Positions 3,078 to 6,444 of a stretch of DNA of 50,918 nucleotides are shown piece by piece (within the stretch, counting starts at the first letter, position 1; each line of letters starts with the position of its first letter). The DNA comes from a virus. The notes under the pieces are model-generated. The model worked only from the letters and a program-made list of their open reading frames with translations, was not told the DNA's origin and searched no databases. The position numbers and the translations under genes were made by a program. Location: positions 1-50,918 of IMG/VR virus record IMGVR_UViG_3300012931_000029; one strand, given 5' to 3'.

Positions 3078-3896
3078 ATGAATGAGCTGGCACTATTCGC
3101 AGGCGCTGGTGGCGGCATACTCAGCGGCAAACTCCTTGGATGGCGCACCGTCTGCGCCGTCGAAATCGAGCCATATGCTCGCAATGTGCTCATCGCTCGG
3201 CAAGACGACGGATGCCTCCAACCCTTCCCAATCTGGGACGACGTGCGCACATTCGACGGAAAGCCTTGGCGTGGAGTGGTGGATATCGTCACTGGCGGAT
3301 TCCCGTGCCAAGACATCAGCTACGCCGGGAGTGGTGCAGGTATCAACGGCGAGAGAAGCGGGCTGTGGTCTGAAATGGCTCGAATCATTCGCGAGGTGGG
3401 ACCGCGCTTCGTGCTCGTGGAAAACTCCCCAATGCTCACTTCTCGCGGGCTTGGACGAGTACTCGCAGACTTGGCCGCGATGGGGTATGATGCGAAATGG
3501 GGAGTGTTGGGAGCTAACCACGCCGGCGCACCTCACCGCCGAGAAAGAATCTGGATTCTGGCCAACGCCGACAGTCTGCGGGAATTACAACCGAGCTGGC
3601 ATCACTCCGAAGGCGGGCGATGGTCTGGCGACAGCGATGAGGAAATGGCCGACGCCAACCTGTCAGGACGCGAAGAACAACGGCGCACCATCGCAGATGA
3701 AGCGGAACACGAAGCCGCTAAATGCGGAGGTTGGTGGGCCGCTGAACCCGACGTGGGTCGAGTGGCTCATGGGGTGGCCGCTCGGGTGGACCGACTGCGC
3801 TGCATCGGCAACGGACAGGTTCCGGCAGTGGTGCGAATCGCATGGAATATCCTTCAACCTAATGAACAACCAACACACGCCGCAGAGGCAGTCTAA
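3078..3896 (+). CDS. C5-cytosine DNA methyltransferase
   Basis: 272 residues with the C5-methyltransferase motifs in order: FAGAGG (7-12, S-adenosylmethionine binding), GGFPCQDIS with the PCQ catalytic loop (76-78), VLVENS (ENV-type, 113-117), RRERIW (154-159), and RLRCIGNGQVPAV near the C-terminus (motif X). It transfers methyl groups to cytosine in a short DNA target. In a phage with no visible partner nuclease the likely role is protection from host restriction. The target-recognition region (about 165-235) is short. The whole gene is overlapped by a second open frame starting 4 nt later, which constrains both proteins. Confidence 0.92.
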   Translation: MNELALFAGAGGGILSGKLLGWRTVCAVEIEPYARNVLIARQDDGCLQPFPIWDDVRTFDGKPWRGVVDIVTGGFPCQDISYAGSGAGINGERSGLWSEMARIIREVGPRFVLVENSPMLTSRGLGRVLADLAAMGYDAKWGVLGANHAGAPHRRERIWILANADSLRELQPSWHHSEGGRWSGDSDEEMADANLSGREEQRRTIADEAEHEAAKCGGWWAAEPDVGRVAHGVAARVDRLRCIGNGQVPAVVRIAWNILQPNEQPTHAAEAV

Positions 3897-3903
3897 CGAG
3901 TGA
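3082..3903 (+). CDS. Overprinted phage protein in the +1 frame of the methyltransferase
   Basis: 273 residues, open over the entire methyltransferase gene in the +1 frame, with its ATG 4 nt after the methyltransferase ATG (ATGAATGAG). Its sequence is not random-looking. It starts MSWHYSQALVAAYSAANSLD and has SFARWDRASCSWKTPQCSLL, TWPRWGMMRNGECWELTTPA, two WPTPT repeats, and LNPTWVEWLMGWPLGWTDC near the end. I recall this architecture (MSWHYS..., S-SWKT-QCSLL, WPRWG-MR-GECWE, NP-WVEWLMGWP-GWT) as a conserved phage family of unknown function that overlaps C5-methyltransferase genes. The function is unknown. All methyltransferase motifs lie in the other frame, so this is not a frameshifted remnant of that enzyme. 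Confidence 0.75.
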   Translation: MSWHYSQALVAAYSAANSLDGAPSAPSKSSHMLAMCSSLGKTTDASNPSQSGTTCAHSTESLGVEWWISSLADSRAKTSATPGVVQVSTAREAGCGLKWLESFARWDRASCSWKTPQCSLLAGLDEYSQTWPRWGMMRNGECWELTTPAHLTAEKESGFWPTPTVCGNYNRAGITPKAGDGLATAMRKWPTPTCQDAKNNGAPSQMKRNTKPLNAEVGGPLNPTWVEWLMGWPLGWTDCAASATDRFRQWCESHGISFNLMNNQHTPQRQSNE

Positions 3904-5242: not shown

Positions 5243-6052
5243 ATGAACGAGCACGACGAAACGACCAGAGTATGCGAGGAACCGATGCCGTTTGGCGAGG
5301 TGATGCGGACGGCGGAGGCGGAGTTGGCGGACTGGCAGGCGCAGTTCGCGTCCAACCCGCAGCGGTATCGCCAGCCGGGCGTGTGCTGCGCGGTGCTGCC
5401 GGATGGGCGCAAGTGCGAGGCGGCAATCCCGCCGCCTTGGGTGATCAAGTGCGGGTCGATCATGTTCCCGGTGGTGCATTGCCCGGAATGCACACGGTCC
5501 TATTTCGAGCGCGAGGCGCGCGGCGACCAGTTGGCGCTGGAGGCGGAGTTGGCCTGGCTAGTCCCGCCAGACTTCGTTGGATGGGACAACAGCAAGGGCA
5601 ACGGCAAGCTGCGATCGGCGGCGCTCAAGACGCTTGAATCCAACCCAGGAAAGGGGATTGTTATCCACGGAGAGACTGGGACGTGCAAGACCAGGGTGAT
5701 GTGGGAAATGGTGAAGTTCTTGGTGGCGCGCGGGGAGAAATTCCTGTGGCGCGACGCGGCGGAACTGGAGGCCGGCGGGATCGACAAGGAGTGCTACTTC
5801 GTGCGGCACCTGTTCATTGACGATCTCGGAAACGAAGGTAAGAAGCCAAGCTTCCAGCCTGCATTACTTGGTCTAATCCGCAAGCGGTGCGACTGGCACC
5901 GACCAATTTACCTGAGCACGCAACTGGACGGCGCAGGGTTCAAGAAGCGGTTCTTTGAGTCGCACGCAGGACAGGCAGTGCTCCGGCGGCTGCGCGACCA
6001 TTCCGTGATGATTTCCTCGCTGCAAAACACCCAATCTCCCGATGACCTATGA
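5243..6052 (+). CDS. DnaC-like AAA+ helicase loader ATPase
   Basis: 269 residues. A cysteine-containing N-terminal part (VCCAVLPDGRKCEAAIPPPW ... HCPECTRSYFEREARG) suggests a zinc-binding region. Walker A is GETGTCKTR (about residue 143), Walker B is HLFIDDLGNE (about 189-198), and RPIYLSTQLDG is the sensor-1 region. This matches DnaC/IstB-type ATPases that load replicative helicase. It follows the replication-organiser-like gene by 17 nt. Its end overlaps the RusA-like gene by 11 nt and couples as ATGA with the other-frame ORF at 6049. Confidence 0.85.
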   Translation: MNEHDETTRVCEEPMPFGEVMRTAEAELADWQAQFASNPQRYRQPGVCCAVLPDGRKCEAAIPPPWVIKCGSIMFPVVHCPECTRSYFEREARGDQLALEAELAWLVPPDFVGWDNSKGNGKLRSAALKTLESNPGKGIVIHGETGTCKTRVMWEMVKFLVARGEKFLWRDAAELEAGGIDKECYFVRHLFIDDLGNEGKKPSFQPALLGLIRKRCDWHRPIYLSTQLDGAGFKKRFFESHAGQAVLRRLRDHSVMISSLQNTQSPDDL

Positions 6053-6383
6053 CGAACTCAAGCAACTCCTACCACGCGCTAGCGAGACATTCCTGCGCGC
6101 CAATTGTGATAAGTCTGAGGGGACTCGGCCACATCGTCAGTTTCAAAAACACGAAGATGATTGCGCGGGGGCGGCTCATTACCAACCCAAAAAAGCAAAA
6201 GGCGATGGAGAGTTACATCCTTGCTATCGAGTGCGAATTACTCTCCGCATTTCGGACAACCGCCGACGCGACGCAGATGGAGCACTCACTAGCATCTTGG
6301 ACGCGCTTATCCATGCCACAGGACGACTCAGTAGACTGGATACAGGAAATAAGCATCCGGGTGGAGCGCGTGAAACACGGTGA
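6042..6383 (+). CDS. RusA-like Holliday junction resolvase (frame A)
   Basis: 113 residues. The N-terminus YDELKQLLPRASETFLRANC matches a leader I recall from phage RusA-like proteins. The core YRVRITLRISDNRRRDADGA, then LTSILDALIHATG, lines up with the RusA core R-D-x-D-N-x-x-K...DAL-HAG, including the paired aspartates. The usual downstream DDSQI-E motif is missing from this frame and is instead readable in the +1 frame (DDSVDWIQEI). So either this product is truncated, or a +1 shift joins the two frames, or both frames are used separately. The start overlaps the DnaC-like gene by 11 nt. Confidence 0.65.
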   Translation: MTYDELKQLLPRASETFLRANCDKSEGTRPHRQFQKHEDDCAGAAHYQPKKAKGDGELHPCYRVRITLRISDNRRRDADGALTSILDALIHATGRLSRLDTGNKHPGGARETR

Positions 6384-6444
6384 TGAGGGGGCGGAAATAA
6401 CCATCGAGAAACTTTCGCTTGACGAAAGTAAGGAAATTTTGTAG
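6049..6444 (+). CDS. Overlapping +1-frame phage protein over the RusA-like gene (frame B)
   Basis: 131 residues. The ATG is fused to the DnaC-like stop (ATGA), a good coupling arrangement. The order is VSFKNTKMIARGRLITNPKK, QKAMESYILAIECELLSAF, SWTRLSMPQDDSVDWIQEIS and VKHGDEGAEITIEKL. I recall this order (SFKN-K...RGRL-T-P--Q--ME, SW--S-LP-DDS---I-E, GEEGA-I-IERL) as a recurring phage family, so it is probably a real product and not a shadow. Its C-terminal half also supplies the DDS...E segment expected of RusA. Which reading is right needs comparative data. Confidence 0.6.
   Translation: MTNSSNSYHALARHSCAPIVISLRGLGHIVSFKNTKMIARGRLITNPKKQKAMESYILAIECELLSAFRTTADATQMEHSLASWTRLSMPQDDSVDWIQEISIRVERVKHGDEGAEITIEKLSLDESKEIL

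Follow-up and report, generated by a model that had tools for sequence, protein, structure and literature searches.

Two genes of a virus that overlap almost end to end are probably translated into separate chains, which would come together as a single split Holliday-junction resolvase of the RusA family. They are found on the plus strand at 6042-6444 of virus record IMGVR_UViG_3300012931_000029 (50.9 kb; the window, meaning the whole stretch of DNA that was analyzed, spans 50,918 nucleotides). The two open reading frames (ORFs) are here called A and B, and B is one base ahead of A. A reading made from the letters of the DNA without database searches (the sequence-only reading) had pointed to two coherent overlapping frames at this place. 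These are real, and both are open and conserved in related loci. On balance we also favor the view that the catalytic core lies in a second frame, within the gene that encodes the remainder of the fold, that the two products form one active site, and that this is the only detected RusA across diverse phages. The features of the locus are as follows.

5243..6052, plus strand: gene for a DnaC-like helicase loader, so named from its match to the PHROG family of that function (E 7e-8).
6042..6383, plus strand: ORF A, 113 aa, ATG to TGA; RusA catalytic core (D77, D79), strand 2 and helix 2, followed by an unconserved tail.
6049..6444, plus strand: ORF B, 131 aa, ATG to TAG; RusA strand 1, SFKN loop, helix 1, DD site (D92/D93) and C-terminal strands.
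6042..6104, plus strand: N-terminal extension of A (MTYDELKQLLPRASETFLRAN), a two-helix piece by prediction.
6100..6240, plus strand: RusA N-terminal part (strand 1, SFKN loop, helix 1) in frame B; A is open and unselected.
6189..6195, plus strand: heptamer A_AAA_AAG in frame B, which the family does not conserve.
6225..6317, plus strand: RusA core (strand 2, RDxDG loop, helix 2) in frame A; B is open and mostly nearly unselected.
6225..6246, plus strand: short stretch with both frames selected (A, F/Y-R-V-T-I; B, F-x-S-Q-L-x-S).
6313..6441, plus strand: RusA C-terminal part (PxDDS loop, last strands) in frame B.

The RusA motif RISDNRRRDADGALTSILDALIHA is present in A, and the sequence of B includes SFKNTKMIARGRLITN and MPQDDSVDWIQEI. 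The ATG of B overlaps the TGA of the upstream DnaC-like gene in an ATGA at 6049-6052, as the sequence-only reading had noted. The sequence-only reading had also placed the beginning of RusA and its paired aspartates in A and the DD motif in B. The aspartates do belong to A and the DD and C-terminal part to B; the N-terminal part, however, lies in B as well.

The homology to RusA runs in the order B-A-B. By itself, A matches RusA families only over residues 62-92 (phrog_34, E 7e-4; phrog_1532), and B has no significant family match. The N-terminal part of B, the core of A and the C-terminal part of B were joined, as a search probe only, and compared with the RusA PHROG (phrog_34). This join matched in 17 of 20 members (best 6e-8), compared with 8 of 25 for A alone (best 1e-4) and 0 of 25 for B alone. 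Adding the C-terminal part together with the N-terminal part raised the RusA match from 20.4 to 26.9 bits. E. coli RusA was the only match of the joined profile in the PDB, and against 12 RusA sequences the profile aligned from the PSxN loop to the C-terminus with 96% probability. Scanned against Pfam, the joined parts did not hit RusA. Column shuffles reached the RusA profile score in 1 of 100 cases for the N-terminal part and in 18 of 100 for the C-terminal part, so the case for the latter rests more on the DD motif, its position and selection than on the profile score. The catalytic aspartates of E. coli RusA are D70, D72 and D91. All three have counterparts here that are nearly invariant in the family and are split between the frames: D77 and D79 in A, and D92/D93 in B.

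The layout is shared by 43 loci from metagenomes, of which 42 are on viral contigs and one is in a Verrucomicrobiota MAG. Among 387 genomes sampled across the phylum, the only match was in this already known MAG. Frame A of the 43 loci always carries the RusA catalytic core FRVTI..SDxRxRDxDG..ILDC, and frame B carries the N-terminal GHvpSFKNxK..helix..SQL and the C-terminal PxDDS..GEEGA.I.IE. Thirty loci with less than 75% nucleotide identity to each other make up the non-redundant set. The first relatives came from a family sequence that served for searching only. This probe found seven viral loci with similarity in frame B, and in all seven frame A was also open, with SDxRxRDxDG (or a close variant) and then (I/L)LDC. 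A DNA pattern that joined the frame-A core to the frame-B PxDD, with stops not considered, matched 22 stretches, every one of them a family member. A variant pattern, one match in a genome collection (the MAG) and a search with the joined alignment enlarged the set to 43.

In all 39 loci of the joined-alignment search, the core is one base behind the frame of the SFKN motif. A PxDDS-type motif was recognized in 37 of them, always in the SFKN frame, and the remaining two have FDDS in frame B. No single-frame relative appeared among these 39 loci, in a search that could have shown one. The frame-B protein of the record, used alone as a probe, retrieved no viral-contig relatives, and searches of a phage record collection with A or B found no true family members. 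A match in that collection (H1/L058) was rejected as an unrelated single-frame protein, and the matches of the A probe were rejected as weak and ordinary RusA. A RusA made as a single polypeptide in one frame is thus seen at none of the loci, the core being in A and the flanks in B throughout. Dual coding was one of the two options left by the sequence-only reading, and it is the one that the homologues uphold: they keep both full frames, and a fused single frame occurs in none of the loci examined.

Both frames have closely spaced starts in nearly every locus, with the start of A before that of B. The N-terminal extension of A has a recurring motif, ELxxxxPxAS, in the record (6042-6104), L007, L024 and L029, and a two-helix structure is predicted for it with high confidence. 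Other members have alternative short motifs at the A N-terminus (WTxxEL, EQLAxILAxxGY). A closes at varied positions past the core and its tail is unconserved in most lineages. A basic tail, xLRKxAxSxxRxR, follows the core in frame A of L018 (the MAG), L027, L029, L035 and L039. It may be under selection there, judging by its presence in lineages that differ in frame B at the same place.

The openness of the two frames was examined in the 30 non-redundant loci by shuffling synonymous codons with the amino acids of the selected frame fixed. Frame B is open through the core in all 30 loci, with 12.8 expected, and frame A is open through the N-terminal part in 29 of 30, with 10.7 expected. The third frame, the control, behaved as expected (11 vs 11.6, and 2 vs 2.5). 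Some loci were confirmed by similarity search, which possibly biases these counts slightly toward open frames; the loci found by pattern are free of this bias. Both frames are conserved in relatives and are open more often than the shuffles predict, so the overlap exceeds chance. Only L083 departs from this: its frame A is interrupted by two stops upstream of the core, at -108 and -84 (nucleotide positions here and below are counted from the frame-A codon of the Ser conserved in SDxR, 6252 in the record). An ATG at -51 in this locus could begin a short A chain. Codon -51 of frame A is ATG, GTG or TTG in many loci and is a candidate internal start for the core. These start-like codons may be a by-product of a conserved Trp-Met in frame B. 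Starting A internally at -51 is thus possible, though not throughout the family, as the record itself has GGC there.

Selection acts on B, then on A and then again on B, and it switches at the boundaries of the fold. In two groups of close relatives, B is selected from about -150 to -30 (pN/pS 0.15 and 0.41, vs 1.29 and 1.24 for A). From 0 to +60 the selected frame is A (0.23 and 0.11, vs 0.61 and 1.88 for B), and from +64 it is B again (0.25 and 0.50, vs 1.14 and 1.43 for A). The N-terminal extension of A in the L003 group has a pN/pS of 0.62 in A vs 1.01 in B. Dual constraint is found only over about 20 nt, at the first switch (-26 to -8), where the B residues at -26, -20, -17, -14 and -8 are conserved above A-synonymous shuffles. 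The S, Q, L and S of B at -20, -17, -14 and -8 are kept in 14, 17, 18 and 14 of 19 loci, and 0 of 500 synonymous shuffles of A reach these values. From -5 to +31 there is little conservation of B beyond what A accounts for.

The AlphaFold model of B alone is poorly defined in the middle, and a search with it placed RusA at ranks 1 and 2 in the PDB, with Foldseek E-values above 1. The B model gives Z scores of 4.4-4.5 with RusA over 81-84 residues (82 residues for the first-ranked RusA, Z 4.5), and the next fold has a Z of 2.4. In the model of A alone, two helices are predicted with confidence at the N-terminus (pLDDT 91-92 over the first 20 residues); a spacer that is loose and then helix 2 follow them. 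The B model suggests that B carries a RusA-like fold despite having no RusA sequence signal.

We propose that two translation starts a few bases apart would yield chain A (from 6042) and chain B (from 6049). Frame B stays open across the core although most of its residues there are unconstrained, which argues that B is read through the core. Frame A is open upstream of the core with mostly free residues, which likewise argues that A is read from upstream. Chain B would provide strand 1, the SFKN loop, helix 1, the third acidic site (D92/D93) and the C-terminal strands, and its segment opposite the core would be an open, largely unselected linker. Chain A would provide strand 2, the catalytic loop with D77 and D79, and helix 2, all of them behind a spacer. 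Binding of A to B would then complete one RusA fold, with an active site formed by D77/D79 of A and D92/D93 of B. RusA cuts four-way junctions as a dimer, and the complex is for this reason presumed to be 2:2. It would cut branched DNA during phage replication and recombination. Such a role would fit the known function of RusA, the lack of any further detected RusA-like match in 20 of these records, and the neighboring genes, among them those for DnaC-like loaders, a Sak4-like protein, a primase/helicase and exonucleases.

The two products could instead be independent proteins, with A a minimal RusA-like nuclease and B a related partner without a catalytic role, such as a DNA-binding or regulatory protein, so that a shared active site would be unnecessary. 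Each ORF is kept open with its own start, and most of a predicted RusA-like fold is carried by B, as this explanation would have it. The parts, however, complement each other exactly: B has the DD site and A the DxD site. On its own, A would also lack helix 1 and the final strands, and the tail behind its core is not conserved in most lineages. We regard independent functions as unlikely.

A mosaic single chain would need two programmed frameshifts: translation would begin in B, move by -1 into A before the core and return by +1 to B after it. The RusA order of parts would be explained, as would the finding that each stretch is selected mostly in one frame, and A_AAA_AAG is present in frame B near the first switch in the record and in 10 other loci. 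A slippery site is nevertheless not a feature of the family. An X_XXY_YYZ heptamer upstream of the core is absent from 23 of the 43 loci and none is conserved, and a shared +1 site at the second switch is not evident among the loci compared. Moreover, the end of helix 1 (in B) and the start of strand 2 (in A) have conserved codons that share bases, so that one -1 shift cannot place both in one chain. The openness of B through the core and of A upstream of it would also be left unexplained. We think such a chain improbable, somewhat more so than two independent proteins, and it is the shared bases, the missing heptamers, the open but unselected frames and the two nearby starts that lead us to propose two chains.

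The simpler form of this idea, a single +1 shift in A near 6320 that would give one complete RusA, is very improbable. Joining the A core to the C-terminal part of B does improve the RusA match. Its product would nonetheless be incomplete, as it is frame B, upstream, that encodes strand 1 and helix 1 and is under selection there, so that a -1 shift would be needed besides the +1, and the loci compared have no evident shift site in common. A sequencing error or a decaying pseudogene is refuted by identical frame offsets in 43 loci on different contigs and by purifying selection.

A split resolvase of two chains may have arisen from a one-frame RusA when the linker ahead of strand 2 underwent a frame change. 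This first change would have been rescued by an upstream start that already read the new frame. The second frame change, in the loop before DD, would have come later, and after each step the two fragments could have complemented each other. An origin of the second junction by recent deletion between short direct repeats was considered and rejected, as the relatives share the frame offset. In most overlapping genes that are known, an old protein is paired with an unrelated new one. Here one ancient fold appears to be divided between two frames, piecewise and in order. The locus would thus be a case of how a gene survives two frame shifts by turning into two proteins, and a test bed for the evolution of split enzymes. 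If the proposal is true, the overlap keeps the two halves inseparable. Annotation with one gene per stretch would miss or misname such enzymes.

The RusA of E. coli and lambdoid phages (PDB 1q8r, 2h8c, 2h8e; phrog_34) is similar by profile and by fold in the order of its parts, namely strand 1 and the PSxN loop, helix 1, strand 2, the RDxD loop, helix 2, the DD loop and the C-terminal strands. It differs in being one chain from one frame, whereas at this locus another frame, and probably another chain, holds the middle third. The locus has DxDG instead of the DxDN of RusA. Lys76, which adjoins the DxDN motif in E. coli RusA, has no conserved equivalent here, the position being S, A, N, E or T in 42 loci. 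We found no description of RusA in this split-frame arrangement in the openly licensed literature. The Rz and Rz1 proteins of phage lambda act together, and their reading frames overlap on one stretch of DNA; unlike A and B, they are not complementary parts of one enzyme fold.

The closest precedent for the arrangement is M.EcoHK31I, the small gene of which is nested in another reading frame. Its small polypeptide has motif IX only, and the large one has the motifs before and after it (PMC3404938). M.EcoHK31I and M.AquI are two-polypeptide DNA cytosine methyltransferases in which the motifs of one enzyme are divided between two polypeptides. The record has a second long overlap on the plus strand, at 3078-3903. 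There 3078-3896 encodes a cytosine-5 DNA methyltransferase (PF00145, E 3e-33), and the frame at 3082-3903, open for all 273 aa, matches phrog_1008, named DNA methyltransferase (E 2e-29). The pair may encode a methyltransferase split in the manner of M.EcoHK31I. At the RusA locus, both ORFs are conserved and each carries different essential motifs of one enzyme. The enzyme and the fold are, however, different from those of the methyltransferases: the pair described here is a small nuclease pair, and its arrangement is conserved in a phage family.
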